Positions 30,836 through 58,632 of a stretch of 64,000 nucleotides of DNA are shown piece by piece. Both the position numbers and the translations under genes were made by a program. The stretch is from an uncultured Paracoccaceae bacterium (GTDB lineage: Bacteria; Pseudomonadota; Alphaproteobacteria; Rhodobacterales; Rhodobacteraceae): positions 2,294,001 to 2,358,000 of the forward strand of contig CANLNT010000001.1 in the NCBI GenBank assembly GCA_947492825.1, read 5' to 3'. Under the pieces are notes generated by a model that saw nothing but the letters and a program-made list of their open reading frames with translations, made no database searches and was not told the DNA's origin. Position 1 is the first letter of the stretch. Each line of letters starts with the position of its first letter.

Positions 30836-33800
30836 TCAGAACTGCGCTATGATGTTCAGGAACGCGCCTTGATCATCCCTTGTCAGGTCCGTCAGATCAT
30901 CCGAGAAGCTGCCAAAATTATAGCCCACCCCAACCTTGAGGTTTGCGTTCAGCGATTTGTAAACCGCACCCAGCGCGCTTGTCTCTGACGTGCCCGCATC
31001 CACAAGGTTCAACTGCCGCACCTCAATCAGCGCGTCCCAATCCTTGACCACATGCCAGCGGGCAGAGGCCGCGGCGAGCCAGGCATCATTGGCCGCATCC
31101 AGATTGCCATCCGCATCCAGCGTCTGGCTGCTGCGATAGCCGACCTTGCCACCCAGCGTCCATTGCGGGTTCAGGTCATAGGTCGCGTCTAGGCTGACCA
31201 CATGGCTACGCTGGCGGATGCCGCTGTCGTCGCTGGCATCCCGCAGCCCGTAGAGATCATAAAGATACCGATAGCGCGCCAGCACATTCAGCTTGTCATC
31301 CTGCGTCGGGCGGAAGGCATAGCCCAGCACCACATCGGCATAATTGCCGTCCACGAGCGTGCTTTGATCGGTCTGGGATCGGGCCAGATCGGCGGAAAAG
31401 ACCAACCGGCGCTCTTCGTCAATCTTGTAGGCCGCATTGGCCGATACCAGCAGGGTATCGGCGTTCACTTGCAAACCGTTCTGCAACCCGTCCTCGACCC
31501 GGTATTCCACCCGGCCAGAGGCGGACAGTTGGTCATCTTCATAGACCACGCCAAGGGTCAGCGCCTGCCGCTCAAAGTCATAAAGATCGCCATCATCCAC
31601 GCGTCCGAATTCCAGCGCTGTGGTGATCGACAGCGCGTCATTGGGTGCGTAGGTCAACCCATAGGCGCTGGTCAGCGATCGGTGCCGCCCAAACAGGTCA
31701 TAGGTATTTTCGCCGAACATATCGACGGTGCTGCTGACGCTTTGTGTGCCACCGGCCACAAACCGGCCCCGGTCGCGGCCATTCAGCACCAGACCATTCA
31801 GATCGCGGCCCGGTTCCAACTCGTAGCCCAAATACCGCGTGTTCCCGTTGCCATCATCGCGGCTGGCGGTGATGCGGCCACCGACACCCAGATCGCCGTC
31901 AGATACCTCGCCCGCGACGGCCCAGCCGTTGGCAAAGGCATAGGTCCCGCCCACGCCAAATCGGTTGTTCTCTGGCAGACCGACCACATCCACGGTCGCC
32001 TGCCCAAAGACGTAGACCGATGCGTCATCGCTGGGGCGGTAGGTCACTTTGGCGGCCACGTCCGTGCGGCTGCCGGGATTGGTGCCACCGGTGTTGTCCT
32101 GCACTTCCACGCCGACGGCATATTCCCATTGGTCAGAGGCTTCATAGGCCAGCTGCCAGGTGCCATCGACGGTGCGCACTCCGGCCTCATTTTCGTAGTG
32201 ATCAAAGCCCACCAACAGCGTCAGCCGGTCCAACAGCTTCACATCCGCCGACAGACCATAGAGCGTTTCATCGCTGGTCACGCTCAGATCAAGCGAAGAG
32301 AACCCGGCGGTGCGTTCTTCGTAATAGGCGTTGACCACGCCCTCGCCGCCCAGTCCCAATTCCGCCAGATCCGCCTGCGCTTCGACCTTGATCGCCTGTC
32401 CTGCATCGCCTGTGGCGGCGATGTCATCCACGATCAATCCGCCATCGGCAGAGAATGTACTGTCGAACCCGGTGCCTTCGGATTCGGCATATTCAATTTT
32501 GACAAAACTATTGTCCGACAGCGCCAAAAGCAGGTCGGCGCCAACCACCCGGTGATCCGTCACACCGGTTTCATCCAGCATTCCGCTAACCCCGAACCGC
32601 AGATTGTCGGTCACCCAGCCCTCGGCCCGGCCACCATAGGCAAAGCCGTCAACATCGCCTGCCGTGGGCGTGTGTTCATAGGCCGCGACCAACACCACAT
32701 CGGCGTCGCGCGCCGACCCGATGGAAAACAACCCGTCAGATGCCGAGGCCTCAATCGGGCGGGTCAGGGTCACGATGCCCTGAATGTAGTTGATTGCGTA
32801 ATCCTCGCCCGCGATCAGGGTTTGCGTGTCGATCACACGGCCGGTATCGGGGTCGCGCAACTGGATCGACAATGTCTCGGACGCCTGGGCAATATCCTGT
32901 TTTTCAAGGAAAAAGACCGTGCCACCTGTACCAAGGAAGACATCGCGCTGCGGCAGCATGTCGGGCTGGGCGGCATAAAGTGTCAGCGCCGCGCGCGCCT
33001 CGCCCGCTGGGGTCACGCTGGACGTCGCCAGCCCCGCCGACAGCCCGTAGAGCGACCGGTCGTTCTGCACAAAGCGGTTGTCACCAAGGTCGCTGTCAAA
33101 GTCGCCCCATTGCAGATAGTTCGCCTCGCGCTCGATCCGCAGGAACAGCTTGCCGGACGTGGGGGTGCGGTCTTCGATTGTGCTGTCATCGCCATAAGTG
33201 GGGTAGAGGTCTGCGGGGTCCACGCGCAACAGCAGCTGCCGGGGGTCACGTTCATCCAACCGGCGAAAGATCTGGTCCAGATCGCCTTCGCCTGTGTCCA
33301 GCGACCCGGTGATCCGGGTGCCGCCTGCGGTCTTGCCGTCAAAGAACCCCGCGACACGCCCTGTCTGATAGGTCTCGCGCCCGGTGGTGCTGTCGCCCTC
33401 GCGGATGCCAAAGGTCAGATCAGCGGTGGCGACATAGAACCATTCTGCGTTGGGGATGGTGATGTCGCGCGTCAGGTCCACGCGCTGGCCTGCACCATTC
33501 ACGCTGACATCCACGCCATAGTCGCCGGGTGGCAGAATGCGCTGGATCACAAAGCCACCGCTGCCGTCTGTCGGCACCACCTCGCCCAGCGCGACAACCC
33601 GCGCGCCGGGAGCTACATCGGTGCCGGATACGGTGACCGCCCCGCCGCTGACCGGGATGCCCCTGCGGCGCGCGCTGTCACTGCCGTCTTCGACGCCCTC
33701 GGCCAGACCGCGCGGGTCCGCGCGCATCACGGACAAGGGTGCGGTTTCGTCAAACCGGCCCTGCGCATCATAGACCCGGTGCACCACCACCAGATCATCG

Positions 33801-34213
33801 CCTTCTGGCAGGGTCAGGGCGACTTGCCCATTGGGATCAACCGGCACCGTGGCGACCGTGCGCGCGCCACCAAGGGCCGCGCGGTCAATCACGCGGATTT
33901 CGCCGCGCTGCACGAAGGCCGGATAGTTCAGCGCCGATTGCAGAGTGATTTGGTCGCCTGCGCGTCCCGGATCACCGACCAGTTCCACGTCCAGCCGCGG
34001 GTCGGCACCCAGCCCGTCAAAGACCACCTGCACATCAGCATTTGCCAACGCCACATCGGTGCGCCGCACGGTATCGACCACCACCGGATCACCGATGATC
34101 GCATCACCGTTCAGCGAGATGGCAAAGCCGTCTTGCGCCGCGGCAGGGAAAGCTGTGGCAAGGGCCAATGCACTGGTTAGCAGGGCTGTGTTTCGCATGT
34201 TCATCATCCGCAT
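30836..34213 (-). CDS. Large usher/translocon-like outer-membrane beta-barrel protein
   Basis: 1125 residues. A Sec signal peptide (cut near AFPAAAQ/DG) is followed by a beta-rich periplasmic region, a carboxypeptidase-regulatory-like beta-sandwich at about 185-250 (GARVVALGEVVPTDGSGGFVIQ), and a segment with YPTYGDDS (337-344) and EDYAINYIQGIVTLTRP (470-486). The latter motifs recall large outer-membrane ushers and SprA-like translocons. The rest, to the terminal phenylalanine (LNIIAQF), is alternating hydrophobic beta strands, i.e. a barrel with about 20 or more strands. There is no TonB box or plug. The start follows the giant DUF11 gene stop by one base (several close ATG codons, so the exact start is uncertain), implying a joint function: I infer export or anchoring of the giant protein. 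Confidence 0.78.
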   Translation of the reverse strand: MRMMNMRNTALLTSALALATAFPAAAQDGFAISLNGDAIIGDPVVVDTVRRTDVALANADVQVVFDGLGADPRLDVELVGDPGRAGDQITLQSALNYPAFVQRGEIRVIDRAALGGARTVATVPVDPNGQVALTLPEGDDLVVVHRVYDAQGRFDETAPLSVMRADPRGLAEGVEDGSDSARRRGIPVSGGAVTVSGTDVAPGARVVALGEVVPTDGSGGFVIQRILPPGDYGVDVSVNGAGQRVDLTRDITIPNAEWFYVATADLTFGIREGDSTTGRETYQTGRVAGFFDGKTAGGTRITGSLDTGEGDLDQIFRRLDERDPRQLLLRVDPADLYPTYGDDSTIEDRTPTSGKLFLRIEREANYLQWGDFDSDLGDNRFVQNDRSLYGLSAGLATSSVTPAGEARAALTLYAAQPDMLPQRDVFLGTGGTVFFLEKQDIAQASETLSIQLRDPDTGRVIDTQTLIAGEDYAINYIQGIVTLTRPIEASASDGLFSIGSARDADVVLVAAYEHTPTAGDVDGFAYGGRAEGWVTDNLRFGVSGMLDETGVTDHRVVGADLLLALSDNSFVKIEYAESEGTGFDSTFSADGGLIVDDIAATGDAGQAIKVEAQADLAELGLGGEGVVNAYYEERTAGFSSLDLSVTSDETLYGLSADVKLLDRLTLLVGFDHYENEAGVRTVDGTWQLAYEASDQWEYAVGVEVQDNTGGTNPGSRTDVAAKVTYRPSDDASVYVFGQATVDVVGLPENNRFGVGGTYAFANGWAVAGEVSDGDLGVGGRITASRDDGNGNTRYLGYELEPGRDLNGLVLNGRDRGRFVAGGTQSVSSTVDMFGENTYDLFGRHRSLTSAYGLTYAPNDALSITTALEFGRVDDGDLYDFERQALTLGVVYEDDQLSASGRVEYRVEDGLQNGLQVNADTLLVSANAAYKIDEERRLVFSADLARSQTDQSTLVDGNYADVVLGYAFRPTQDDKLNVLARYRYLYDLYGLRDASDDSGIRQRSHVVSLDATYDLNPQWTLGGKVGYRSSQTLDADGNLDAANDAWLAAASARWHVVKDWDALIEVRQLNLVDAGTSETSALGAVYKSLNANLKVGVGYNFGSFSDDLTDLTRDDQGAFLNIIAQF

Positions 34214-34214
34214 C

Positions 34215-37200
34215 CTATTGCACCGCCCGAATGGCCCGTACGATCCGCAAGCCTGCGCCGCGCCAGCGATCGCGGATCAAGGCCTCTGCCGCGTCCAGTC
34301 GCGCGCGCGCCAGTTCACGACCTTCGCCGTTCACATAGTAGTTCAGGTTCAGCACCACCGGGCTGTCGCCCACCTGCTGCGCCAAGTTGTCAATCCCCGA
34401 TGCCAGCGCGGCAGAGGGGGCCGCCCCGCTGCCAAAGGCCGCCGCCATCAGGTCAATGTCGACCACATTGCCCAGTGCTGCGCCAAAGTTCAGCTTGGCC
34501 ACTGTGCCCGGTGTCACCCGGATCGTGCGCGGGTTTTCGGTGGTGACGGCGTAGCCCGTGGGCAAGGTCCGCTCATCCAGTTTCAACGTGAAATTGGACC
34601 CAATCGACGCAGGCAGTTCCGCACATGGCACACTAAAGCGGCCATAGGCATCTGTGGTGATCAACGTGCCGTTCACCGTTGACAGGCGCACATTCGGCAA
34701 GCCCGGTTCTGCACCCGGTGTCAGCACCTCGGGTGCCAGCTTGCCGCCGCCTTTTCCGCCGTAGTAGGTCTGATCGGTGATCTGTGAGCGGTCAGGTTCA
34801 ATCACACCATCCTGATAACCGTTGAAGTTCTCATCATCGAACACCTTGCCGATGATGTCGGCGCATTCGAATACCGGCTCTGGCGGGCGGGTCAGGGTGG
34901 CGGTGGCGATGTTGGACACCACCTCGCCATCCGGGCCCAGCATATAGGCGCGGTTCACCATCTCGACCGCATCCCCCACCAAGCGCGCGTCAAAGGTCAC
35001 GCTGCTGGTGCCCAAAGGTGCCAGCGTCAGCGGAGACCAACGCAGCTGATTTCCAACCGTTTCGGGATCATCAATCGCTACGCCATCAAAGGCCGATGTG
35101 CCGGGCGTGTAGATCACACCGGCAGGCATGATATCGACCGCAGTCAGCTGCGCCTCTTCCTGTGCAAGGCGGTTCTGGAAGGTCAGCGTATAGGTTACCG
35201 TGCCACCGCGCAGCACCGTTTCCGGGGCCACCGATTTGGTGGCAAAGATGTCGGGGGCTGCGACCCTTGGTATCTCGACCGATGCGGTCACCGCCTCGGA
35301 AATGGTCGAGGACACCACCGAAACGACATTGGCCTGTCCGGGGAAGCCCTGGCTGGTGTCATAGTCCACATCAAACTGCAACGTGCCTGTGGCACCGGGT
35401 ACGAGTGAGACACCGCTGGTCAGCAGGTTGATGTCATTGCGACCGTCAAAGCCGGGGTTCGGCCCGCCTGTTCCGATCCAGCCGCTGGCTGTCGGCGTGG
35501 TGGTGCCGATCAGCTCTGCCGGGGTGGTGAACGCCACCAGATCATCGGTTACCTGCACCTCTGTCTGGGTAATGTTGCCGGTGTTGGTCACCGTCACATC
35601 AAAGGTCACGCGATAAAGGTTTGCGCCAATCAGCTCCGGTGTTGTGGCCTCTTTCGTGGCCTCGATGCTGGCAATCTGGTTGATCGCGATGACCGTCGGG
35701 TCATCGGTGGTATTGCCGTCATCATCAATCCCGTTGTCAGAGGTATCGGTGACCGGATCGCCACTTGGGTCCGTCGTTTCGGCCAAAGCGGTGTTCTCGA
35801 CCCCGCCGCTGTCGATGTCGGCCTGCGTCAGCGTATACAGCACGGTGAACGTGTTGATCGCACCGGGGATCAGCGAGGTTTCGTCAGTGCCACTGTCAAA
35901 GGTTATACTGTCCGGGGTCAGCGCATCGCCGTCCAAATTGGTCAGCGTATCGGTGATCACCAGATTGGTCAGCGTGACCGTGCCTGTGTTTTCGGCCGTA
36001 ATTGTGAATTCCACAACGTCACCGGCCACGACGGCCGCATCGAGGTCCGCAAATGGCACCGCAAGCTTGGTCACTTCAAGCGCGGGTGCAGGCGTGATGC
36101 TCAGCACCGTTGGGTCGTCAGAGGTGTTGCCATCGGTGTTGTCGCCATCGTCCGAGACATCGTCGACCGGGTCGCCATTGGGCGCAGTGGCCGTCACCGT
36201 TGCGGTGTTCGAAATGCCGCCTGCGTCCACGTCATCCTGTGTCAGCGTATAACGCAACTCGAACGTTAGCACCTGTCCCGGCGCGATCGACCCCGGCAAG
36301 CTGGCTGGGTTGACGATGGTCGGAGCCGCCGTCGACAGCACCGTGCCATTTGCGTCCGTCAGCGTGTCAGCGACATCAATACCAAAGAGTGTCGTGTTGC
36401 CCTGATTGGTTGCCACCAGCGCAAAGACCACCTCATCACCTGCCACAGCACCTGTGGTGGTGATCGTCTTCACCAGGCTCAGTGCGGGTCCGGGGACAAT
36501 TGCAAACTCGGTCGGGTCATCGTCGGTGTTGCCGTCGGTGTCATCGCCATCGTCAGAGGTGTCATTAACCGGTGTGCCAAAGGGATCAGTGGCTGCAACC
36601 AGCACGGTGTTATCAAACCCGCCTGCATCAATATCGGCCTGCGTGATCCGCTTGGTCCCGGTATAGGTCCAGACCTCGGTCACATCGAGCCGCCCGTCGC
36701 CATCAGTGTCACCGGACAGACTGCCAAATGGCGTGGTCAGCGTGGTCGGCGTGGCAGCAAAATTGCGGCGTGTCATCGTGTCGGTGATGCTGTCGATGTC
36801 CAGCGTCACATCGCCTGTGTTGACCAGTTGAAGGGTATAGGTGACGTCTGTCCCAAGGAAGGTGTTGGGCGCCGACGATGTCTTTGTCACCTCAAGCCCC
36901 GGCATCGCAGGCACTGCCGGTGTGGTGATCGTGTCGTCGCGATCCACCGGTGTGCCGCTGGGGTCCATCGCCGTGGCCGTGGCGGTGTTCTGGATCTCGC
37001 CTGCGTCCTTGTCGTCTTGGGTGACAGTGTAAGACAGCGTGCAGGTCGCATCGGTGGCGCCCACATCAAGTCGCGCGATGTCGCAGGTATAGGCGGGACT
37101 GACAATATCATCGGTGATGGTCAGATCAGTCAGCGTCACGTTGCCGGTGTTTTCCACCGTGAAGGTATAGGTGACACCGGTGCCAACCGCGCCAAAGGGG

Positions 37201-40200
37201 TCCGGCGTGGCGGATTTGGTCAACGTGTAATCAGGCGCAGCCGTCGGGCCACCCACCGTCAAAGAGGTGTCATCGCGCACCGGGTCACCCTGCGGATCAA
37301 TACCGGTGACAAAGGCATCGTTGGGGATGTTGCCGTTGTCGATATCGTCCTGCGTGACCGCATAGGTGCCGGTACAGCTGGCATCCACATCGCCGGGCAA
37401 CAAATCACCCAAGGTGCAATCCAGCGGCAACAGATCATCGCGCGCGCGCACGCCACTGATCGTCTGGTTGCCGTCATTGGTCACCGTCAGCGTATAGGTG
37501 ATCATCTGGCCCACGGTGCTGAAATCGGTCAGATCAGCGGTCTTGGCGATGCTCAGCGATGGGTCGATATCGGCATCTGTCGTCTCGACGCTGGGCGGAG
37601 AGATCACCGGCGTGCCGGGCAGCGGCCCGAAAGAGGTTTCCGCCGTGGCGCTGTTGGTGACACTGCCACTGTCCAGATCGTCCTGATCTATCAGCAGTTG
37701 CCCTTCGCAGGTGGCCGTCTCGGCCGGATCAACCGCATTGGCGGGGGTAAAATCGGGGTCGCCGCCGCCGGGGTTTGGTACCCAGCAGGTGACCGGCGCG
37801 GTCAACAGGGGATCGTTGATCACAATGTCACGTGTAAAGGCCGCATCACCGGTGTTGGTCACTTCAAATTCATAGACCAGCACATCGTTGACCTCGTCAA
37901 ACTCCAGCCCCGGCTGGACAGAGGTGTCCGGGTTCTCGATCCGCACCAGCGTTTTGGTCACGGTCAGGCCGGGAGCTGCCCCGGTGGGCACGGTGACGGA
38001 ATCGGGGGGCGAAGTGGTGCCATCCACTGTCGCCGTTGCCGTGTTGGTGGCAGAACCAACATCAACATCCGGCTGCACCACGGTGTAACTCGCGGTACAT
38101 GTCAGCTCATCCCCCGGTGCCATGCCGGGGTTGGGGTTGGCCGGGCAGCTTGTGCCGCCGGGGATCAGGTTGTCGTTCACGACCAACGGCCCGGTCAGGT
38201 TGACGTTGCCGGTGTTGCGCACGGTGTATTCAAAAGAGATCACAGCGCCCGACACAAAGTTCGCCGGGTTATCAACATCGTTGTCGCCGGTTGAGATCGA
38301 CACAGCCGTTTTGTCTACGGTCAGAGCGGGGGCTTGCTGTGCGGGGACGCTTTCGGTCGCGACGGGGCTGGTCGTGGTGCCATCACTTGCCGTGGCGGTG
38401 TTATCGACCTGCCCCGCGTTCAGATCATCCTGATCCACGGTGTAAGACCCGGTACAGGTCAGCGATGCATCGGGTGCCAAGGGAACGGCGCCACAAGTGA
38501 TGGTCCCACCGGCATTGGTGATCAGCGGGTCAGTGATGCTGATCGGATCGGTGATCGTGACATTGCCGTCATTGGTGACGGAGAATGTATATGTCAGCGT
38601 ATCACCCACGGCGTCAAACGTCGGACCACCCGCAGTGAGTTCCTTGACCAGCGACAGGGCCGGTGCCGCCGGGATCGTCAGCACGGTGCGGTCGCTGTTG
38701 TCACCGGGCGTGCCCGCATCAGTCAGGTCATCAACATCCGTGCCGTTGGGATCGGTCCCAGCCACACGCGCGCGGTTGTCGATGCCACCTGCGTCAATGT
38801 CATCCTGCGTCAACTGATAGGTCGCGCGATAGGTCGCGGTTTCACCCGGGATCAGCGTCCCTTCACCTGAACCCGCATCCGCTGCAAAGAACGTCGGGTT
38901 CGTGGTCAGTGTCAGCGGCGTGCCATCGGCGCGGCGCAGGGTGTCCTGCGGAACGCCGACGCCGGTCAGCGTGACATTGCCGGTGTTGGTCGCCGTAATC
39001 TCGAACCGGACGATCCCGTTCAGCGTGGTCGGCCCCGCCGTGATCACCTTTTCGCCTTCAATGTCGGGCATCGGCGCAATTGGCAGCGTGGTCGGGGTGG
39101 ACCCACCGCCGGGCGTCGGGTGGGATACATCATCAACTGGCGTGCCAAACGGGTCTTCGGCGCTGGCAGTAGCGGTGTTCGACAGACCGCCCGCATCAAT
39201 ATCGTCCTGCGTCAGCACATGGGTCAGTTGATAGGTCCAGACCTCGGTCAAACCCAGAAGGCCATCACCGCCGGTATCCCCGCCTGTAAACGAAGGCACG
39301 GAAGGTGTGATCGGTGTGCCGTCCGCACGGCTGAGCGTGTCAGACAGGCTCACATTATCCAGCGTCACATTGCCGGTGTTGCTGACAGAGATGTCAAAGA
39401 CCACCGTCTGCCCTGCGACCAACGTGGCCGGTGGCGTGACGGTCTTGACCGTCTCCAGCGACGGATCGGGGTCTTCAAGGTCGACCGTTTCGGTTGCCGT
39501 TTCGGTTGGTGGTGGTGTCACACCCGCCGGTGGGGTCGCATCAGCGCTGACGATATTGGTCAGGTCATTGCCCGCATCTATATCGGCCTGTGTGACCACA
39601 TAGGTCGCGGTCAGTTGCGCGGTGTCAGTCGGGTCAAGCGATGCAATCACCCCACCCGATGAAATCGTCAGGTTCGCGGTGCCACTGGCAGAGGTATGCG
39701 CATCCGTCAGTGTGATCGCGGTCAGCGTCACATTGCCCGTATTCGCGACGGTGTAGGTATAGGTGATCGTGTCGCCCTCTGCGACATTTGTGGTGTCAGA
39801 GGCCACCTTGGAGATTGTGAAATCAGGGTTGCGGCTGCCGCTTACCGTGACCGTCGCGTCGTCATCAATCGTGCCGCCATTGACCGGGTCGGCCACCTCT
39901 GCGGTGGCGATGTTGGTCACTTCGCCCGCGTTCACATCGTCTTGGTCCACGGTATAGGTGCCGGTGCAGACAAAGAAACTGTCGGGCAACAAGACCGGGT
40001 CAAAATCTGGCGCAGGCCCGGTGTCTGGCAGTGAATTGCCGCAAGACAGGCTGGGGATCAGATCGTCCGTCACAGTTGTGGCGGCGGTCAGCGTCACGTT
40101 GCCGGTGTTGGCGATGACATAGCGGTAATCCAGCGTGTCACCGTCATTGGCGAAAGTGGTGTCCAGCGCCTCTTTGGTGATGGTGATCGCCGGTTCGCGG

Positions 40201-43200
40201 TCGGGGCCGCTGCCGGTGATGTCGTCGCTGTCATCAACCGGGCCGTAGTTGTCGGTGGTGGATGTGGCCGTCGCCTCGTTGTCCAGCGTACCGCGGTCGA
40301 TATCGTCCTGCGTGACCGTATAGGTAAACACGCATGATGTATCCTGTTGCCCCGGTGCCAGGGGCCCGATGTCGCATTGCTCACCGGGGAACAGAATGTC
40401 GGTGACTGTCGTGCTGGTCAGCGTGATGTTGCCGCTGTTGGTTACGGTGATCTGATATGGCACCTGCTGACCAACCGCTGAGAAGGCGGTCATCGGCTCG
40501 CCCTGTGCCAGCTCTTTGAGGATCGTGACCTCCGGATTGGGGGCCACCAGCGGATGCATGTTGTCATCCATGCCGGTCACCGCCACGCCCTGCGGCGTGT
40601 TGCCTGCCACATCTGCGATATTGTCAAGCGTGGTGCCCGCATCCAGATCAGCCTGCTGCACGGTATAGCTGCCGGTACAGACCGCTTGCTGACCGGGTTG
40701 CAAGGTCGTGGGACTGGCCGCACCATTATAAAGACAGCTGAGGCCCGGGATCAGCGGATCGCTGATCGCCAGACCAGAGATTGTCTGGTTGCCGTCATTG
40801 TCCACTGTGATCTGATAGGTCAGCATATCGCCCACGGCGGCCGGGTTATTGCCCGCTGTCACGGATTTATCGACTGTCAGCAGGTTGTCCGCCACGCCTT
40901 CGACGGTGACTTGCACGGGGGGTGACGAAATCTCGGCGCTGCCAGAGGGGATGGTGGTGACGATGCCTGCAGCATTGTTGGTGACAAAGCCGGTCGTCAG
41001 ACCCGCCTGCACACGGTCCAGATCATCCTGATCAATGATATAGGTCACAGTTTCGGTACAGGTGAATGTCTCGCCGGGGTCCAGATCGTCTGACGGGCCA
41101 GCCGGGGCCACGTCCACCGCCGGGTCAAAACAAGCGATGTCCATGCCGGGGAAATTGTCGTCGCGGATCACGATCTCACGGGCAATCGACGGGGCCAGCG
41201 CGCCGCCGGGGCTCGTGTTGGTCACGTCAAAGGTATAGGTGATCGTGTCACCGATCTCGTCAAATGAAGTGACATCCGGGGTCTTGGTGATGGTGATGGT
41301 CGGCGGCTCACCCTCTGGCACTGTTTCGGAGGTTGGCGGGCTGTCCACTGTGGGGCTGGATGCAAAGGCAGTGTTGGTCACGCTGCCAAAGGCCACGTCA
41401 TCACTGCTGATCGGATAGGTCGCGGTACAGCTGACCGGCGCATCGGTCGGATCAAGATCGCCTGCGAAACAGGTAAAGGTGCCGATCAGGTTATCGGTAA
41501 TCTCAATCGGGCCAACAATTGTCTGATTGCCCGTGTTGGTGATCTGATAGGTGTATTCAAGCGTCGAGGACGTGTTGAAGCCACCGTTGCCCAGAATATT
41601 TGTCAGTTCTTTTTCAACTTCCATCGCGGGCGTCTGCACCGCGTTCACAGTGACCGAGGCAGGCGTGGGCGTGGTCACAGGCGCACCGCCAAAGGTGGTC
41701 GCTGCGGTGGCCGAGTTTGTAAAGCTGCCTGCGTCGATGTCCGACTGCTGGGCCGTCCAGATCGCAGTACAGGTCACTGCGCCGCCGGGGGCCACGGCAC
41801 CGCTGCCGCAGGACAGGGCCGGGTCAATGTCAGGGTCGTTGACCGTAAATGGCGCAGTCAGGGTCACGTTGCCGGTGTTGCGCACTGTGAATGTATAGCT
41901 GACCGTGTCACCCACCGCCGCATAGGTCGATGGCGTGCCGGGGGTCACCACCTTGTCGATTTCGATGCTCGCGCCCTGCGTGGCGTTGACCGTCACCGTG
42001 TCCGTGGGGGATGCCACATCGGCAGACCCGTCGGGGTGGGTGGCGGATGGCACCACCGGCTGGGTCACCTCTGCAAAGGCCACATTGGTCACATCGCCCG
42101 TATCCAGATCATCCTGCGTGACCGTATAGCTGGCGGTGCAATTCAGGCTGTCGCCGGGGGCAAGACCTGCACCAATTGGATCACAAACCACCGGCGTGCG
42201 GTCATCATCCACCGTGATCGGTTCTGTGATGGTGATCGCACCGGGATTGCCTGCAGCCACATTGGTGACCACGTAATTGTAGGTGATCGTATCACCCACC
42301 GCGCTGAAACCACCGGTGGGCGAGGATTTGACGATGCTTAGCTCTGGGGTCTGGTCGGGGCCGGGAATGGTATTTTCGTCGCTCGCATCGACCGGCGTGC
42401 CTTCCGTCGTGACACCGGTCACATTGACCGTGTTCACCACCGCGCCAAAGTCCACCTCGTCCTGGGTGATCGTCAGATCGGCACTCAGCGCGGGCGCACC
42501 ACCGGCACAGGTTGTCGCGGTCGCACCGGGGGCCAGATCATCCAGCGCACAGTTCAGCGTGATGCGCGGATCAGGATCGTCAATCGTCAGGCCGGTCAGT
42601 GTGACATTGCCGGTGTTGGTGACTGAAAAGTTGTAGGTCAGCGTATCACCCAGCGCAAAGGCGCTTGGGTTGCCTGCGATGGTCTTTGAAACGCTGACGC
42701 CGGGCATCTCTGCGGGGCCAGGTACAATCACGGTGGCGCTGTCAGTCTCTGCCGGGCCACTTGGCGGGTTGCCGGTCACATCACCGGTGTTCGAAAATTC
42801 GCCCGCGTCCACATCGCTTTGCTGCACGGTATAGGTGCCGGTACAGGCATAGCTGGCGCCGGGCGCCAAATCCTGCGGCGCACAGGCCGGGGCAAAGGTG
42901 ACATCCGCATCGGTGATCGTCACACCGGTCAGCGTCACATTGCCGGTGTTGCGCGCGGTCAGGGTAAAGGTGACCACATCGTTTTCCAGCGTAAAGCCGC
43001 CATCAGCCACCTTTGTGACGTCAACCGAAGGATTAGCCGCAGGACCGGTCACAGTATTCATGTCGTTTTCGTTCAGCCCGTTCGCGGCAGATGCCGCAAA
43101 GGCTGTGTTCACATAAGATCCCGCATCAATATCGTCCTGCGTGATCGTATAACTGCCCACGCAGCTGCTGTCGGTGTCGCCGGGTGCAATGGCAGGCAAG

Positions 43201-46200
43201 TTACAGCTGAGCCCCAGTTGTGCATCGGTCACCACCACATCGGTCAGGGTGATCTTGCCGTCGTTCAGGACGTCAATCACGTAATCAATCCGGTCACCCA
43301 CGGCTGCAAACGTGGTGGCAGAGGCGCGCTTGTCCACGTCCATACTGGGCAGCACGGTTCCATCGGCATTGACCGTTTCGCCATCGGTGTCGGTCAGTGG
43401 TGCACCGCCGGGGGTGCGGCCCAGCGCGGTGGCCGTATTGGTCACAAACCCCCGGTCCAGATCAGCCTGTATGATCGTATAGCTATAGGTGCCTGCGCAG
43501 CTTTCGGTGCCAAAGGGCGCAATTGGCCCCACTGAACACACCGCCCCGCCCAACAGCGGGTCGCTGATGTCCACAGTTGAAATGGTCTGGGCAGAGGTGT
43601 TGGTCACGCTGAAGGTGTAGTCAATCGTATCGCCCAGATCGCCGAAATCCGCCGTGGCCGTGGCCTTGTCCAGCGTCAGGCCGGGGGTCACGGCAGAGGG
43701 CACGGTTTCAGTGACTGCAGGGCTGGTCACATCGGTGCCCGACACGCTGAGCGTGGCGGTCGCCATGTTCACGACCTCTGCGGCATCAATGTCGGGCTGG
43801 GTGACGTCATAGGTGCCAGTACAGGTCAGGCTATTGCCGACGGTCAGGGCGGCAGGCAGCGGGTTGGGATCGGAACAATCAACCCCGCCTGCCGGAATCT
43901 TGTCGTCGCTTACAATTGTGGTGGGGTCCACGCCGGTCAGGTCGATATCCAGCGTGCCGTCATTGGTGACCGTATAGGTATAGGTGATCGTCTCACCCAG
44001 CGTGGAAAAGCTCGCCAGATCAGCCGTCTTCGCAATGTCCAGCGACGGCGTGCCGGTGGGCGACAGGCTGACGCTGTCGGCGTTCGATACCACCGGGTCG
44101 CCGCCAAACGTTGTCTCTGCCGTGGCGGTGTTGTTCACGAAACCCGCCGTCACATCCGCCGTGGTGATGGTGTAGGTCGCGGTGCAGGTCACATCGTCGC
44201 CCGGGGCCAGCGCACCTGCAGGGCAGGAAATCACCGTCGGGCTGAACTTGTTGTCGTCCACAGTGAACGGCCCGGGCAATTCAACGTTGCCGGTGTTGGT
44301 GACCAGATAGCTGTAGCTGATCGTCTCGTTGGTCAGGAACGACCCGTCAAAGCTGCCGGATTTTGCCATGCTCAGCGCGGGCATCTGATCGGCATCCACG
44401 GTCAGGTCGTCCGTGACCGGGGTGATCGCTGTGCCGTCCGGCGTTTCAGCCTCTGCCGTGGCGGTGTTCGTCACTTCTCCCGCGTCCAGATCATCTTGTG
44501 TGATCGTGTAGGGGTCGGACGTACAGGTGATGTTGCCCCCTGCCGGGATGGTGGCCGCAGGGCAGGTTAAGGTGATTTTGTCATCGGACAAATCCACCGC
44601 ATCCAACCGCACATTGCCGGTGTTGGTCAGCAGATAGCTGTAAACCAGTTGATCTGTCGTCGCGGTAAAGGGATCAGGGCCGCTGGCCAGCGACTTTTCA
44701 ACCGTCAACGCGGGCAGAAAGACGGCCGGGATTGTGGCGTCGTCATCGTCCATCGCGGTCGCACCGCTCACAGTGATCGTCGCACTTGCGGTGTTCAGCA
44801 CCTCGCCTGCGTCAATGTCAGACTGCATGACTGTATAACTGGCCGAACACGTGACCGTGTTGCCCGGTGCTACCGCGCCTGCGGGGCAAGACACGCTTGG
44901 ATCAAGCGTATCAGTCACCGTGGGCGGACCCGGCCATGTCACATTGCCGGTGTTGCGAATGGCGATGTCGTAATTCAACACATCACCCACCGCATCGTAG
45001 TTCGCCGTGCCTGCGGTCTTGGTCAGTTCCATCGCGGGTGCTGATGCGGGACCCGTGACCGTCGCTGAACCGGTATCGCTCAGGGACTGATTGTTGGGAT
45101 CGCGCGCACGCGCCGTTGCGGTGTTGACCAGCGATGTCCCGGCGGCAGCGTTGTCCACATCTGTCTGCGTCACAACATAGGTGCCGGTACAGGTGATCGT
45201 GTTGTCGGTGTTGTCAGCCGACAATGGTACAACTTCGGTGGCATCACAGGTCAGCGCCGGGATCAGCGGGTCGGTGACCTGCACATTGCTCAGCGTCGCA
45301 TTGCCGGTGTTGGATACGGTAACAGTATAGGAGATCACCTGCCCTGCGGTGGTGAAGCTGGTTGGCGACGCGACCTTGTCCACGTCCATCGCGGGCGCAA
45401 GTGCGGGACCATTCAGGATTACCTCAGCCTCGAGCTGACCCAATTGCCCGAATTCGGGCATGCCGTTGGCGACGGCGATATTGGTCAACGTCCCGTTGTC
45501 GATGTCCTCTTGCGTGACCGTGTAGGTCGCTGAACACAGTGCTGTCGCGGGTGCTGGCTGGCCACTTTCGGTGCGGGGCAGGAAGGTAGGCGTACAGGTA
45601 ACACTGCCGATCTTATCATCATCAACAGTGATGTTCGAGATATTGACCGACCCGATGTTGGCGACCTCATAGTCATAGGTGATGACCTGCCCGACCGTCA
45701 GATAAGTCGTATCACCGCCGCGCCGAACCTTGGTCAGCTCGTACCCCGGTGCAATGGTGCGGATGTCATTGTTGGGCAGGTTCTCACCACGCCGGAAATC
45801 CCAATAGTTGTCGTTGGGTGTACGGTCGCGCACCTGTGTGGTGGTCTGGCCGGTCGCCAGAATGTTGGCCAAAAGCGCCGGATTATTGGAACTGAACCAG
45901 CCCGTGTTGGTGGTGTTATTGCCAAACCCGTCCTGAAAGCCAAAACTTTGCGTGCCATTGGTATTGGTGATCTCGGTCGTCAGCCCCGACCAGTTGCCAA
46001 CATCAAAGCCGTTCATCACCAGTTCAATATTGTTGCGGTCAAAGCCGCCGACCTGGGTATCACCGTCATAGGCCGTAAAGCGCACGTCGATCTGCGCAAT
46101 CGATCCGCCAAAATAATCCGTACAGCTGCGAAACCCGCAATCCAGCCCAATCGGGTCGTTGATCGTAAAGGGGTTACCCCGGAATTGGCTGGGAGTGCCG

Positions 46201-46451
46201 TTGTTCTGGAATCCACGGAACGCGCCCGCTGGGTTCGAAAATTGGTAATAGATGTTGCCGTTGGACCCGGTCAGCACGATCGCGACGCCGCCGGCTTCGG
46301 GGTATTCGGGCGGCAGCGCCACACCGCTTCCTGGCACGGTGCTGGTGAATGGTGTCGCTGTGGCAGGGGTGGCGTTGGCAATAAGCCCCAGAGCCACTGC
46401 AGCGGTCATGCCCCAAAGACCTTTTCCTGCCCTGCGCAACACATTCGCCAT
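34215..46451 (-). CDS. Giant secreted DUF11-repeat protein (4078 residues)
   Basis: The signal peptide ends near residue 33 (LGLIANATPATATPF). A unique N-terminal beta domain (about 34-235, rich in Asn/Gly) follows. About 30 DUF11/TIGR01451-type repeats of roughly 120 residues come next (about 236-3855), each with an NTGN(V/I)TLT strand and a TQDDIDAG motif. An SdrD-B-like domain follows (about 3860-3995, GKVFDDENFNGYQDGVIEP...LPNVRLSTVNG). The tail, about 4010-4078, resembles a cut-down OmpA-like peptidoglycan-binding region (ELARARLDAAEALIRDRW). The protein is very acidic and Thr-rich. It is translated just ahead of the barrel gene. A surface adhesin or stalk-like structure is the best inference; no ligand is known. 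Confidence 0.88.
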   Translation of the reverse strand: MANVLRRAGKGLWGMTAAVALGLIANATPATATPFTSTVPGSGVALPPEYPEAGGVAIVLTGSNGNIYYQFSNPAGAFRGFQNNGTPSQFRGNPFTINDPIGLDCGFRSCTDYFGGSIAQIDVRFTAYDGDTQVGGFDRNNIELVMNGFDVGNWSGLTTEITNTNGTQSFGFQDGFGNNTTNTGWFSSNNPALLANILATGQTTTQVRDRTPNDNYWDFRRGENLPNNDIRTIAPGYELTKVRRGGDTTYLTVGQVITYDYEVANIGSVNISNITVDDDKIGSVTCTPTFLPRTESGQPAPATALCSATYTVTQEDIDNGTLTNIAVANGMPEFGQLGQLEAEVILNGPALAPAMDVDKVASPTSFTTAGQVISYTVTVSNTGNATLSNVQVTDPLIPALTCDATEVVPLSADNTDNTITCTGTYVVTQTDVDNAAAGTSLVNTATARARDPNNQSLSDTGSATVTGPASAPAMELTKTAGTANYDAVGDVLNYDIAIRNTGNVTWPGPPTVTDTLDPSVSCPAGAVAPGNTVTCSASYTVMQSDIDAGEVLNTASATITVSGATAMDDDDATIPAVFLPALTVEKSLASGPDPFTATTDQLVYSYLLTNTGNVRLDAVDLSDDKITLTCPAATIPAGGNITCTSDPYTITQDDLDAGEVTNTATAEAETPDGTAITPVTDDLTVDADQMPALSMAKSGSFDGSFLTNETISYSYLVTNTGNVELPGPFTVDDNKFSPTVISCPAGALAPGDDVTCTATYTITTADVTAGFVNNTATAETTFGGDPVVSNADSVSLSPTGTPSLDIAKTADLASFSTLGETITYTYTVTNDGTLDIDLTGVDPTTIVSDDKIPAGGVDCSDPNPLPAALTVGNSLTCTGTYDVTQPDIDAAEVVNMATATLSVSGTDVTSPAVTETVPSAVTPGLTLDKATATADFGDLGDTIDYTFSVTNTSAQTISTVDISDPLLGGAVCSVGPIAPFGTESCAGTYSYTIIQADLDRGFVTNTATALGRTPGGAPLTDTDGETVNADGTVLPSMDVDKRASATTFAAVGDRIDYVIDVLNDGKITLTDVVVTDAQLGLSCNLPAIAPGDTDSSCVGSYTITQDDIDAGSYVNTAFAASAANGLNENDMNTVTGPAANPSVDVTKVADGGFTLENDVVTFTLTARNTGNVTLTGVTITDADVTFAPACAPQDLAPGASYACTGTYTVQQSDVDAGEFSNTGDVTGNPPSGPAETDSATVIVPGPAEMPGVSVSKTIAGNPSAFALGDTLTYNFSVTNTGNVTLTGLTIDDPDPRITLNCALDDLAPGATATTCAGGAPALSADLTITQDEVDFGAVVNTVNVTGVTTEGTPVDASDENTIPGPDQTPELSIVKSSPTGGFSAVGDTITYNYVVTNVAAGNPGAITITEPITVDDDRTPVVCDPIGAGLAPGDSLNCTASYTVTQDDLDTGDVTNVAFAEVTQPVVPSATHPDGSADVASPTDTVTVNATQGASIEIDKVVTPGTPSTYAAVGDTVSYTFTVRNTGNVTLTAPFTVNDPDIDPALSCGSGAVAPGGAVTCTAIWTAQQSDIDAGSFTNSATAATTFGGAPVTTPTPASVTVNAVQTPAMEVEKELTNILGNGGFNTSSTLEYTYQITNTGNQTIVGPIEITDNLIGTFTCFAGDLDPTDAPVSCTATYPISSDDVAFGSVTNTAFASSPTVDSPPTSETVPEGEPPTITITKTPDVTSFDEIGDTITYTFDVTNTSPGGALAPSIAREIVIRDDNFPGMDIACFDPAVDVAPAGPSDDLDPGETFTCTETVTYIIDQDDLDRVQAGLTTGFVTNNAAGIVTTIPSGSAEISSPPVQVTVEGVADNLLTVDKSVTAGNNPAAVGDMLTYQITVDNDGNQTISGLAISDPLIPGLSCLYNGAASPTTLQPGQQAVCTGSYTVQQADLDAGTTLDNIADVAGNTPQGVAVTGMDDNMHPLVAPNPEVTILKELAQGEPMTAFSAVGQQVPYQITVTNSGNITLTSTTVTDILFPGEQCDIGPLAPGQQDTSCVFTYTVTQDDIDRGTLDNEATATSTTDNYGPVDDSDDITGSGPDREPAITITKEALDTTFANDGDTLDYRYVIANTGNVTLTAATTVTDDLIPSLSCGNSLPDTGPAPDFDPVLLPDSFFVCTGTYTVDQDDVNAGEVTNIATAEVADPVNGGTIDDDATVTVSGSRNPDFTISKVASDTTNVAEGDTITYTYTVANTGNVTLTAITLTDAHTSASGTANLTISSGGVIASLDPTDTAQLTATYVVTQADIDAGNDLTNIVSADATPPAGVTPPPTETATETVDLEDPDPSLETVKTVTPPATLVAGQTVVFDISVSNTGNVTLDNVSLSDTLSRADGTPITPSVPSFTGGDTGGDGLLGLTEVWTYQLTHVLTQDDIDAGGLSNTATASAEDPFGTPVDDVSHPTPGGGSTPTTLPIAPMPDIEGEKVITAGPTTLNGIVRFEITATNTGNVTLTGVGVPQDTLRRADGTPLTLTTNPTFFAADAGSGEGTLIPGETATYRATYQLTQDDIDAGGIDNRARVAGTDPNGTDVDDLTDAGTPGDNSDRTVLTIPAAPALSLVKELTAGGPTFDAVGDTLTYTFSVTNDGNVTITDPISITDPLITNAGGTITCGAVPLAPDASLTCTGSYTVDQDDLNAGQVDNTATASDGTTTSPVATESVPAQQAPALTVDKTAVSISTGDNDVDNPANFVSGAVISFEYTVRNTGNVNLTGPLVVNDNLIPGGTSCPANPNPGMAPGDELTCTASYTVVQPDVDVGSATNTATATVDGTTSPPDSVTVPTGAAPGLTVTKTLVRIENPDTSVQPGLEFDEVNDVLVYEFEVTNTGDAAFTRDIVINDPLLTAPVTCWVPNPGGGDPDFTPANAVDPAETATCEGQLLIDQDDLDSGSVTNSATAETSFGPLPGTPVISPPSVETTDADIDPSLSIAKTADLTDFSTVGQMITYTLTVTNDGNQTISGVRARDDLLPLDCTLGDLLPGDVDASCTGTYAVTQDDIDNGNIPNDAFVTGIDPQGDPVRDDTSLTVGGPTAAPDYTLTKSATPDPFGAVGTGVTYTFTVENTGNVTLTDLTITDDIVSPAYTCDIARLDVGATDATCTLSYTVTQDDKDAGEIQNTATATAMDPSGTPVDRDDTITTPAVPAMPGLEVTKTSSAPNTFLGTDVTYTLQLVNTGDVTLDIDSITDTMTRRNFAATPTTLTTPFGSLSGDTDGDGRLDVTEVWTYTGTKRITQADIDAGGFDNTVLVAATDPFGTPVNDTSDDGDDTDGNTDDDPTEFAIVPGPALSLVKTITTTGAVAGDEVVFALVATNQGNTTLFGIDVADTLTDANGTVLSTAAPTIVNPASLPGSIAPGQVLTFELRYTLTQDDVDAGGISNTATVTATAPNGDPVDDVSDDGDNTDGNTSDDPTVLSITPAPALEVTKLAVPFADLDAAVVAGDVVEFTITAENTGTVTLTNLVITDTLTNLDGDALTPDSITFDSGTDETSLIPGAINTFTVLYTLTQADIDSGGVENTALAETTDPSGDPVTDTSDNGIDDDGNTTDDPTVIAINQIASIEATKEATTPELIGANLYRVTFDVTVTNTGNITQTEVQVTDDLVAFTTPAELIGTTTPTASGWIGTGGPNPGFDGRNDINLLTSGVSLVPGATGTLQFDVDYDTSQGFPGQANVVSVVSSTISEAVTASVEIPRVAAPDIFATKSVAPETVLRGGTVTYTLTFQNRLAQEEAQLTAVDIMPAGVIYTPGTSAFDGVAIDDPETVGNQLRWSPLTLAPLGTSSVTFDARLVGDAVEMVNRAYMLGPDGEVVSNIATATLTRPPEPVFECADIIGKVFDDENFNGYQDGVIEPDRSQITDQTYYGGKGGGKLAPEVLTPGAEPGLPNVRLSTVNGTLITTDAYGRFSVPCAELPASIGSNFTLKLDERTLPTGYAVTTENPRTIRVTPGTVAKLNFGAALGNVVDIDLMAAAFGSGAAPSAALASGIDNLAQQVGDSPVVLNLNYYVNGEGRELARARLDAAEALIRDRWRGAGLRIVRAIRAVQ
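34887..45746 (-). repeat. About 30 tandem DUF11-type coding repeats
   Basis: In-frame tandem repeats with period close to 360 bases encode one DUF11 domain each. They are diverged at DNA level but share the coding for NTGNVTLT and TQDDIDAG, so AACACCGGCAACGT-like words recur. Most repeats have a Cys pair in the second half (pattern C...APG...C). Repeats 18-20 and 26-30 lack it and instead carry Asp-rich DDGDDTDGNTDDDPT-like linkers. Confidence 0.88.
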
Positions 46452-46644: not shown

Positions 46645-47730
46645 TCAGACCGGTCGATGGAAGCGTCGGGTGCCTGCATCATGGGCCAGAATGGCCGCCT
46701 CGCTTGGGGTCAGCACGCGGCGCGCATAGGCCCCGTAGGACGCCGCATCGCGGGCAAGATCGGGCAGACGGTCAAACATGCGGTCCTGCGTATCGGGCTG
46801 CATGGTGGCAAGTGCTGCACTTGCGGGATGAAAGCTTTCTGTCGCCACGCCGTTGGCAAAAACGATCTCGTGCTGCGGCAACATGATGTGGATGTAATCC
46901 ACCTGCCGAATGGCCCGGTCGCGAATGACAGAGGTGTCATTGATCAGATCACGGGCCGCGACCAAAACCTCATCCGCGCGGAACAGCGCCTGTGCCCGCG
47001 CGCCGCGCAGCACCACTCGGTGATCGGGCGATACCAGCAGGCCCGCGTCAGGCACATCTTCGTCCAGCGCGCCGCGCCGTAGCCGAATGGGGGCCAGCTC
47101 TGGCATCACCATCAGCCGCGCGCCTGTCACCCGTCGCAGCCCGATCCACAGGATCTCGGCCGCGCCATTGTCCTGCGTCTGCACGAAATCACCCTCAACC
47201 AGACTGGCCACATCGCGCGGGCCAAACGGAGTTTGGATCATGGTGCCAGGTGTGAAACAGACCACGCCGCCGGAATCGGCATGGGCCTGATCGCGCACCC
47301 TTGCGCTGACGCTTTGACGCACCACCCAGAGCTCTGCCCCGCGCGGCGGGATGATCCCGTGAAACAACAAAAGCGGCTTGCGCCCAGCCCCGGTGGGGAT
47401 CAGCGAGATATCCCACGACCTTCGGCCATCGGTGACCACAAAACCGTTGTCAAAAAGCGGATCGTTCAGGATCAGCGGATCGTCCTGCTGTGTCACCCGG
47501 TCCTGCGCCATCAACCGCCGCACGGTCAGGGCCGCGCGCTTGCGCATGTCTGCCATCCCCTCGGCCTCGCCTAGGGGCAAAATGCCCCGTGGGCCATCCA
47601 CGCGCACCGCCTCCCCGGTCCAGGACCAGACAGCGCCCGCGCGCAAATCTGCGACAGGCGCGGCGTGGTTGCCGTCCAGCTCTGTCTGCGACCATGAAAT
47701 AACAAACGTGCCTTTGAAGCCCGTTTTCAT
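46645..47730 (-). CDS. Hint (hedgehog/intein-type) domain-containing protein
   Basis: About 361 residues of the Roseobacter-type Hint family. The Hint fold is visible as VCFTPGTMIQTPFGPRDVASLVEGDFVQTQDNG (nucleophile Cys at its start), then ILWIGLRRVTGARL, PIRLRRGAL, LLVSPDHRVVLRG and YIHIMLPQHEIVFANGVATESFHP. A roughly 150-residue N-terminal domain with no recognised family precedes it, and no signal peptide is seen. No terminal Asn or splice-acceptor residue is present, so self-splicing is doubtful; function is unknown. I prefer ATG 47730 (MKTGFKGTFVISWSQTELDG is the usual start). It lies upstream of the giant DUF11 gene on the same strand. Confidence 0.87.
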   Translation of the reverse strand: MKTGFKGTFVISWSQTELDGNHAAPVADLRAGAVWSWTGEAVRVDGPRGILPLGEAEGMADMRKRAALTVRRLMAQDRVTQQDDPLILNDPLFDNGFVVTDGRRSWDISLIPTGAGRKPLLLFHGIIPPRGAELWVVRQSVSARVRDQAHADSGGVVCFTPGTMIQTPFGPRDVASLVEGDFVQTQDNGAAEILWIGLRRVTGARLMVMPELAPIRLRRGALDEDVPDAGLLVSPDHRVVLRGARAQALFRADEVLVAARDLINDTSVIRDRAIRQVDYIHIMLPQHEIVFANGVATESFHPASAALATMQPDTQDRMFDRLPDLARDAASYGAYARRVLTPSEAAILAHDAGTRRFHRPV

Positions 47731-47838
47731 ACCTGTAACTCTGCCTATCTCGCGCCGCGTCATTGGGTGCGCGGCGATCTGAGAGCAACGTTACTCCACC
47801 GCGGAATCGCGGATCAAGTGCCTGTCACGCATTAAGTT

Positions 47839-48735
47839 TCAAAAGTTGAAGCCAAGCCGCAGTGACCCCAGCACCTGCCCGCCGTCTTGTCCGTCAAATT
47901 CCTCGGACAAATAGGTCGCCCCGTAAAACACGGTGAAGTTCGGCGCAGGTTGCCACAGTACACCCAACCGCGCGCGCTGACGCTGATCAAGTGCTGTCAC
48001 ACCACGGGACGCAGGCAGATAGGCGCTGTCGCCAATCGCCGCAATATCAGCCCCCGCCAGCACCGCCCAACCGGTTTGCCCAGCATCTGTGCCGCGATAG
48101 GGCTGGCCGGTCACATCATCGCGTAGCCAAAGATCGTCCTGGCCGACGTTGCCAATCAGCACATCCGCGCCAATGCGCGCGATCTGCTCTGTCCCGCTGC
48201 GCAGCTCTGCAAAGGGCCGTAAGCTGACGGTCTCGGACACACGATAGGTATAAGTGGCAGAGGCGCGCGCGCCAAAAATCGTCTCGTTCGGCAGCTGGTT
48301 CGCCGTCAAGGGCGCGCGCAAATCAAAGGCATCGTGGAACTTTTCCTGAAACACCGACAACCCGGTTTGCGGCCCGATGAATGCCACATCCGCCCCCAGC
48401 GCATAATGCCAGGGCCCGTCGCCAAAATGCGTTTGCGCACTCAGCGTGATCGCACCCACGTAAGGCCGATCCACGCCGCCCGCACCCGGCGAGATGATCT
48501 CGGTCATGGCGCGGTATTCGATGATGTTGCCAAAGGCGCGGTTGGCTGGGTCATACGGCCCGTTCGCGCGCAAATGGCTATAAACATACGACCCGCTGCG
48601 CCAACGATCCCGCCCATCGCCAAAGTAATCATTGGTGAACAGCCGACCGGTGCCAATCGTTTCGCGCGGTTCGGCCTGTGCAGGCTGAAGGGTCATCAAG
48701 ATTGCAGCAGCGGCAGCAGCAAGTCGGCGCATCAT
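47839..48735 (-). CDS. LpxR-type lipid A 3'-O-deacylase family outer-membrane protein
   Basis: 298 residues with a signal peptide (RRLAAAAAAILMTLQPAQA). The mature protein starts with GRLFTNDYFGDGRDRWRSGSYVYSHL, matching the Asn-Asp...Ser region of LpxR, and continues to FIGPQTGLSVFQEKFHDAF, where the conserved His lies. Alternating strands to a C-terminal LRLGFNF indicate a 12-strand-type barrel. LpxR removes the 3'-acyloxyacyl group of lipid A at the cell surface, with calcium. The gene is divergent from glgB. Activity is inferred from the family only. Confidence 0.82.
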   Translation of the reverse strand: MMRRLAAAAAAILMTLQPAQAEPRETIGTGRLFTNDYFGDGRDRWRSGSYVYSHLRANGPYDPANRAFGNIIEYRAMTEIISPGAGGVDRPYVGAITLSAQTHFGDGPWHYALGADVAFIGPQTGLSVFQEKFHDAFDLRAPLTANQLPNETIFGARASATYTYRVSETVSLRPFAELRSGTEQIARIGADVLIGNVGQDDLWLRDDVTGQPYRGTDAGQTGWAVLAGADIAAIGDSAYLPASRGVTALDQRQRARLGVLWQPAPNFTVFYGATYLSEEFDGQDGGQVLGSLRLGFNF

Positions 48736-51161: not shown

Positions 51162-51163
51162 CG

Positions 51164-52435
51164 ATGAAGCCGACACCAAATCAACGCCTGTCAAACAGGG
51201 CCATGGCCTTTGTGCTTGCCGGGGGTCGTGGGAGCCGCCTGAAAGAGCTGACAGATACCCGCGCCAAACCTGCCGTCTACTTTGGCGGCAAGACCCGGAT
51301 CGTCGACTTTGCCCTGTCCAACGCGCTGAATTCTGGCATCCGCAAGATGGCGATTGCCACGCAGTACAAGGCCCATTCGCTGATCCGCCACTGCCAGCGC
51401 GGCTGGGGCTTTCTACGCGCGGAACGCAACGAATACCTTGATATCCTGCCCGCTTCGCAGCGCATATCAGAGGAAAAATGGTATCTCGGCACCGCTGATG
51501 CCGTGGCCCAGAACATTGACATTATCGACAGCTATGACGTTGATTTCATTGTCGTCCTTGCGGGCGATCACATCTACAAGATGGACTATGAAATCATGTT
51601 GCAGCAGCACCTTGATAGCGGTGCGGATGTGACCATCGGCTGCTTGACCGTCCCCCGGATGGAAGCGACGGCCTTTGGCGTCATGCACTGCGACACCAAG
51701 GACCGGATCACCGCCTTTCTTGAAAAACCCGCTGATCCGCCCTGCATCCCCGGTGACGCCGATCATGCGCTTGCCTCGATGGGCATTTATGTCTTCCGCT
51801 GGGAATTCCTGCGCGAATTACTGCTGGCGGACATGGCCGACAAAAAGTCCAGCCATGACTTTGGCAACGACATCATTCCGCACATCGTCAAGAACGGCAA
51901 AGCCATGGCACACCGGTTCGAGGATAGCTGTGTCACCAGCGGGTTGGAAACTGAACCCTATTGGCGCGATGTGGGCACGATTGATGCCTTCTGGCGGGCC
52001 AACATCGACCTGACCAGCTTTACCCCGCCGCTTGATCTGTATGACACAAGCTGGCCGATCTGGACCTATGCCGAAAGCGTGCCACCGGCCAAATTCATCC
52101 ACAACGAAGAGGGGCGGCGCGGTAATGCAGTCTCCTCGATGGTGTCCGGCAACTGCATCATCTCAGGCTCTGAAATCAAGGAATCGCTGCTGTTCACGGG
52201 GGTTCGCACGCATTCGTTCAGCTCGCTTGATCGCGTGGTGGCCCTGCCCCATGTGGAGGTGAACCGCAAAGCCCAGCTTAAGGATGTGGTGCTGGATCGC
52301 GGCGTTGTGGTGCCCGAGGGCCTTGTCGTTGGCGAAGACCCCGAAGAAGACGCCAAGTGGTTCCGCCGCACCGACAGTGGCGTGGTGCTGATCACCGCAC
52401 CGATGCTGGCGCGCCGCGCGGCAGAGCTTGGCTGA
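51164..52435 (+). CDS. glgC: Glucose-1-phosphate adenylyltransferase
   Basis: 423 residues. It makes ADP-glucose, the committed step of glycogen synthesis, and is usually allosterically controlled. Motifs are the nucleotide loop [57 protein letters not shown] and [10 protein letters not shown] left-handed beta-helix C-terminal domain follows ([58 protein letters not shown]). Start ATG 51164 lies 6 bases from GGGAGG; an ATG at 51158 overlapping the glgB stop is too close to that site. Coupled to glgB. Confidence 0.96.
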
Positions 52436-52436
52436 C

Positions 52437-53867: not shown

Positions 53868-58632
<4,765 letters not shown>

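Follow-up and report, generated by a model that had tools for sequence, protein, structure and literature searches.

A giant isopeptide-type repeat protein and its adjacent outer-membrane barrel form a conserved gene pair and a candidate export-and-display unit

The window, a 64,000-nucleotide stretch of DNA from an uncultured Paracoccaceae bacterium, encodes on its minus strand a 4078-residue Sec-exported giant protein (34215–46451) and, after a single intervening base, a 1125-residue outer-membrane protein (30836–34213); both open reading frames were confirmed where a preceding sequence-only reading had placed them. That the two proteins are dedicated partners is nearly certain, and the partnership is real and old. 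The two genes are neighbours in a wide range of bacteria and in some cases form a single fused gene; the barrel therefore very probably serves this giant in particular, as its way out of the cell or as its anchor. Export of the giant through the barrel is the best inference from the sequences, and we favour, with a probability of roughly 0.55, a two-gene export-and-display unit in which the giant would enter by Sec, dock through a C-terminal module, pass its stalk through the barrel and be retained by its C-terminus. The window belongs to a 4.0-Mb genome of Rhodobacteraceae type, whose closest named contigs are from uncultured Rhodobacteraceae (87–88% protein identity). The features of the pair, in reading order, are:

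34215–46451, minus strand: giant fibrillar-adhesin-like protein, 4078 aa (open reading frame; Pfam DUF7507 x29, DUF11 x15)
46356–46451, minus strand: giant Sec signal peptide, aa 1–32 (by eye: basic start, hydrophobic core, ATA end)
45753–46355, minus strand: giant N-terminal domain, aa 33–233, candidate adhesive tip (alignment of 17 giants' N-termini)
35484–45752, minus strand: stalk, aa 234–3656, 29 DUF7507/DUF11 repeats with Lys-Asp-Asn triads (repeat alignment)
34479–34865, minus strand: giant C-terminal SdrD_B/CnaB-like module, aa 3863–3991 (identity, PF17210 in relatives, CnaB-type fold)
34218–34478, minus strand: last 87 aa of the giant, possibly a degenerate OmpA-like domain without GHTD (weak assignment)
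34211–34217, minus strand: junction TAG-g-ATG, one base from stop to start (open reading frame sequence)
30836–34213, minus strand: outer-membrane barrel partner, 1125 aa (open reading frame; C-terminal Phe; amphipathic strand peaks)
34136–34213, minus strand: barrel signal peptide, aa 1–26 (by eye)
33458–34129, minus strand: barrel N-terminal domain, aa 29–252, presumably periplasmic (conserved block)
32489–33457, minus strand: conserved middle domain of the barrel, aa 253–575 (common to distant fused proteins)
32765–32806, minus strand: EDYAINYIQGIVTL motif, barrel aa 470–483 (invariant D, Y, G and L)
30839–32488, minus strand: C-terminal beta-barrel part, aa 576–1125, ending in Phe (strand peaks, C-terminal Phe)

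The giant's TAG stop occupies 34215–34217, a single g stands at 34214 and the barrel's ATG begins at 34213, so that the one-base spacing of the sequence-only reading holds; its description of this coupling as unusual does not. The two-gene arrangement was seen at 57 loci in alpha-, beta- and gammaproteobacteria and cyanobacteria, the barrel directly following, on the same strand, a giant with the C-terminal module. When the gap was measured from the giant's stop to the nearest possible barrel start, that start lay within 20 nt in 52 of them (−4, an overlap, in 20 and −1 in seven), which makes tight spacing typical of the family. The order is reversed in a single locus (L137, 539–14680), where the barrel comes first and the giant starts 45 nt downstream. 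Locus L129 was considered as an orphan barrel and rejected as such, its giant sitting directly downstream.

Among 296 genomes of the same family, barrel homologues were found in 38 and the C-terminal module in 31, all 31 lying within the 38 (Fisher p 1e-35); the seven barrel-positive genomes lacking the module represent contig-end truncations, fragments or a distant fused class. Of 72,556 plasmid records, 20 carry a full-length barrel and the identical 20 carry the module. A barrel profile search of genomes drawn from the phylum gave 56 of 398, a figure that includes distant proteins sharing the middle domain only, and all of these counts take in some close relatives and are thus not wholly independent. 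As a marker, DUF7507 by itself is less reliable than the module, since it is also present in 13 barrel-negative genomes. Only two modules were without a nearby barrel, a lone 247-aa module and a giant split into several frames. On the question raised earlier, whether the barrel is commonly found without a DUF11 partner, intact main-family barrels always adjoin or are fused to a giant, with contig breaks and degraded remnants as the exceptions. Carriers of the pair include Sulfitobacter guttiformis (pSG53), Sinorhizobium meliloti T073, Pelagibacterium, Phyllobacterium, Devosia, Eleftheria terrae, Croceibacterium and Vibrio campbellii and, more distantly, Kovacikia and Synechococcus NIES-970. 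No homologue was found in phages; one IMG/VR contig carries both genes and is probably bacterial.

Some loci depart from the common layout. In Paracoccus alcaliphilus (L077, 8808–11782), all that is left of the giant is its C-terminal module, in a 203-aa protein encoded just behind two IS transposase genes; module and barrel are both intact. The Synechococcus NIES-970 plasmid (L079, 9224–21637) encodes a module-bearing protein of 541 aa and a barrel-like protein with a C-terminal OmpA match, followed by a separate 2018-aa repeat protein. Three genomes, G032 (L039/L057), G134 (L044/L053) and G232 (L042/L046), each carry two complete, diverged giant-barrel pairs, which makes them useful for the question of partner specificity.

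Fusion of the normally separate proteins argues for their physical contact. In one contig (L116), a single 2079-aa frame, open at the contig start, runs from DUF7507 through DUF11, SdrD_B and the barrel N-terminal and middle domains into the barrel, and distant proteins of 1600–2400 aa likewise place DUF11 and SdrD_B ahead of this middle domain. Adjacency by itself is no proof of contact, and the two could in principle be independent surface proteins that share an operon and never touch. We consider this most improbable given the fused forms, the exact plasmid co-occurrence and the scarcity of barrel-less modules, all of which lie in degraded loci. Distances between modules also correlate with those between barrels (r 0.70–0.75), although linkage alone could yield such values.

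In the giant, a Pfam scan detects 29 DUF7507 stretches (E ~0) and 15 DUF11 stretches (E 5e-80) and no known adhesive domain; no second DUF7507 protein is present in the genome. Alignment of the 29 stalk repeats recovers the isopeptide triad with Lys in 97%, Asp in 100% and Asn in 97%, together with a Cys pair in 76%, and the giant is therefore probably a very long, covalently locked fibre. A 2025 survey of intramolecular isopeptide bonds gave DUF11 and DUF7507 the new names CLIPPER and CLIPPER_2; in it they build fibrillar-adhesin stalks with a Lys-Asp-Asn triad, and DUF11 has the widest distribution of the stalk domains that bear isopeptide bonds (PMC12617251). In its tandem triad-bearing DUF11/DUF7507 domains, the giant has the stalk of a CLIPPER/CLIPPER_2 fibrillar adhesin, and aa 33–233, to which the Pfam scan assigned no known adhesive domain, are the candidate tip.

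In the final ~215 aa of the giant, an SdrD_B/CnaB-like module is followed by an alpha/beta domain of 87 aa. The former is so assigned because PF17210 matches it in 11 of 19 relatives and because its fold weakly matches CnaB pilins. The AlphaFold2 model of the last 299 aa is confident for the alpha/beta end; Foldseek returned no match to this model with E < 0.001, and a further fold comparison listed CnaB pilin domains (Z up to 7.2) and a FimD C-terminal domain, together at Z 5–7 and under the level of a clear match. Of the SdrD-B-like and OmpA-like elements originally proposed for this end, the latter is weaker than claimed: the last 87 aa resemble an OmpA domain that lost its GHTD peptidoglycan-binding motif, but the OmpA match is marginal. 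OmpA folds are absent among the fold matches listed for the C-terminal model, which is no evidence against the OmpA-like reading.

Judged by mean pairwise identity, conservation in the system peaks at the C-terminal module (62%) and not at the N-terminal domain; the stretch before the module and the giant's end are each at 37%, and the barrel parts at 39–46%. Among relatives the giant ranges from 203 aa (truncated) to 4788 aa, against a median of 1117 for the barrel core. The N-terminal domain varies across the family in an alignment of 17 giants and was rejected as a secretion signal, being not conserved. The sequence-only reading had placed partner recognition in this domain (residues 34–235); that proposal is unsupported, because the domain varies while the SdrD_B-like module is conserved. 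Conservation instead points to the giant and the barrel meeting at the giant's C-terminus. A true OmpA domain with GHTD occurs at the giant's C-terminus in Croceibacterium and at the barrel's N-terminus in Eleftheria and in genome G413, and from these positions giant and barrel most likely join in the periplasm, where peptidoglycan can hold the junction.

In the C-terminal half of the barrel protein, 20 amphipathic strand peaks were counted against 8.8 ± 2.5 in shuffles, and Phe is the last residue in 36 of 39 barrel sequences. Outer-membrane proteins that BAM folds typically have a C-terminal Phe and amphipathic strands. The signal peptide reported earlier was recognised again at residues 1–26. 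The AlphaFold2 model, built from an alignment of five sequences, reached a pLDDT of 35. Searches of the PDB with the barrel sequence and the barrel profile gave nothing significant, and in Pfam and NCBIfam the protein has sub-threshold generic barrel matches only, which places it outside every curated family. The carboxypeptidase-regulatory-like domain first ascribed to it is weaker than claimed, as PF13620 matches two of the 39 sequences (best E 0.0022). The motif EDYAINY...GIVTL, taken at first as a sign of kinship with ushers and SprA-like translocons, is itself genuine, with D471, Y472, G479 and L483 invariant in the 39 aligned sequences, but no profile relation supports descent from either group.

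By sequence, the barrel is a member of none of the ushers, TpsB proteins, SprA, autotransporters or TonB receptors. Usher PF00577 and the POTRA and ShlB/TpsB domains matched none of the 39 barrel sequences, and neither the usher domain nor ShlB was found in the pair's own genome; autotransporter and IAT_beta barrel domains were likewise without a match in the 39 sequences. The giant has no Pfam match to a TPS domain. Taken with co-occurrence and fusion, these results uphold the proposal that the two genes encode dedicated partners of a type other than FhaB/TpsB. SprA likeness was judged with the NCBIfam profile TIGR04189, which does not match the barrel and whose best score in the genome, 12 bits against a cut-off of 200, lies elsewhere; for the PorP-like family the barrel has no NCBIfam match up to E 0.1. 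A relation of the barrel or the module to ushers was tried by profile comparison and rejected (hhalign with FimD, ElfC and HtrE, Prob 0.2).

Many public records name the barrel a TonB-dependent receptor, and it is conceivable that it imports a solute while the giant serves as a surface tether or ligand catcher. This is highly unlikely, since Plug, TonB and SusD-like domains are absent from the 39 sequences, in agreement with the earlier observation that the barrel has no TonB plug, and the annotated loci show no conserved transporter gene next to the pair. The export-and-display reading would correct this common annotation.

The nearest analogue is SprB-SprF of Flavobacterium johnsoniae, in which a giant adhesin with a type B CTD is paired with a PorP-like barrel of the T9SS; common to both systems are a giant repetitive surface protein, a conserved C-terminal module and an adjacent cognate outer-membrane barrel. 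To our knowledge, there is no T9SS in the host group of the giant-barrel pair. The gene layout is equal, SprB (669 kDa, repetitive) being encoded next to the barrel gene sprF; SprF binds the C-terminal 368 aa of SprB, whose secretion and surface localisation depend on it, and the translocon is SprA (PMC9143113). By this precedent, the giant might reach the surface by a different path across the outer membrane, such as one assisted by BAM, and the barrel might merely capture the C-terminal module and hold it at the surface, a reading also favoured by the C-terminal position of the giant's conserved part. We regard it as rather unlikely: the genome has no SprA-type translocon above the cut-off and none of the known exporter families tested, the barrel protein is far larger than a 14-strand FadL-type protein, and fusion of passenger and barrel is closer to autotransporters than to SprB-SprF. 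Moreover, SprF is a FadL-family barrel of 14 strands that works with SprA, whereas the giant's barrel has no NCBIfam PorP or SprA match; SprA itself is marked by a 36-strand barrel fold, with which the low-confidence barrel model can hardly be compared.

Other known systems share parts of the arrangement. Two-partner secretion (type Vb, FhaB/FhaC) also has two neighbouring genes, for a huge cargo and for a barrel dedicated to it; however, the barrel here is without a POTRA/ShlB match, the cargo is an Ig-like stalk and not a beta-helix, and the conserved site is C-terminal, whereas FhaB-type cargo has an N-terminal TPS domain. Fimbrial ushers are alike in the proposed export of Ig-like domains, and the CnaB-like module resembles FimD residues 672–750 (Z 5.3–5.9, 19–22% identity over 74–79 residues), where Z < 8 can reflect a common arrangement; yet neither barrel nor module is related to ushers by sequence profile. 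Fused relatives, like type Va and inverse (intimin-type) autotransporters, put an Ig-like passenger ahead of the barrel in one chain, but the passenger is mostly encoded by its own gene, the barrel protein is much larger and there is no family match. In the favoured reading, the pair would follow an autotransporter-like logic divided over two genes, and in its way of working it would be akin to two-partner secretion or SprB-SprF.

In the favoured export-and-display unit, the giant would reach the periplasm via Sec and its C-terminal SdrD_B/CnaB-like module would dock on the periplasmic side of the cognate barrel, the product of the same coupled message. The DUF7507/DUF11 stalk would then move outward through the barrel and lock, via isopeptide bonds and disulfides, into a stiff fibre with its N-terminus outward, while the module would stay behind to plug the barrel and anchor the fibre; in those relatives that have a true OmpA domain, it may link this junction to peptidoglycan. 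The genome's lack of usher and TpsB matches and of any SprA above the cut-off favours passage through the barrel and is no proof of it. Counting against export, a narrow pore would be blocked by domains with isopeptide bonds and disulfides that had already folded in the periplasm, and SprB-SprF offers a precedent for an adjacent, required barrel that may act mainly as an anchor (PMC9143113). Possibly, and we put this forward tentatively, the barrel represents an outer-membrane translocon class of its own, which spans cyanobacteria to gammaproteobacteria, both as gene pairs and as fusions, and would recognise a C-terminal CnaB-like module and export very long isopeptide-locked Ig stalks, perhaps folded, without ATP, POTRA or chaperone.

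No published description of the pair was found in our literature search, in which export and anchoring of DUF11 (CLIPPER) stalks in Proteobacteria were nowhere stated. CLIPPER adhesins such as B9T28_05395 of Acinetobacter silvestris resemble the giant in their isopeptide-bearing DUF11-type stalk and C-terminal OmpA-like anchor; the text of the CLIPPER survey contains neither 'outer membrane' nor 'secretion' and names no barrel partner or export route (PMC12617251). The giant-barrel pair is a concrete, genetically minimal candidate for the export and anchoring of such stalks, and its named, culturable hosts (Sulfitobacter, Loktanella, Sinorhizobium meliloti T073, Phyllobacterium and Devosia) make it testable by single-gene deletions.

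Elsewhere in the window, a Hint_2-domain protein (46645–47763, minus strand) lies directly upstream of the giant, and an LpxR-like outer-membrane protein of the lipid A 3'-O-deacylase family is encoded at 47839–48735 (minus strand). A 992-aa open frame antisense to the barrel gene (31202–34180, plus strand) is probably a composition shadow of the coding strand. On the plus strand, a glycine riboswitch (Rfam RF00504, 60 bits, 24172–24257) stands ahead of glycine-cleavage genes, with GcvP at 25902–28742, and a glycogen-type operon (51077–57635) encodes a nucleotidyl transferase, a starch synthase, an alpha-amylase family protein with CBM48 and a phosphoglucomutase.
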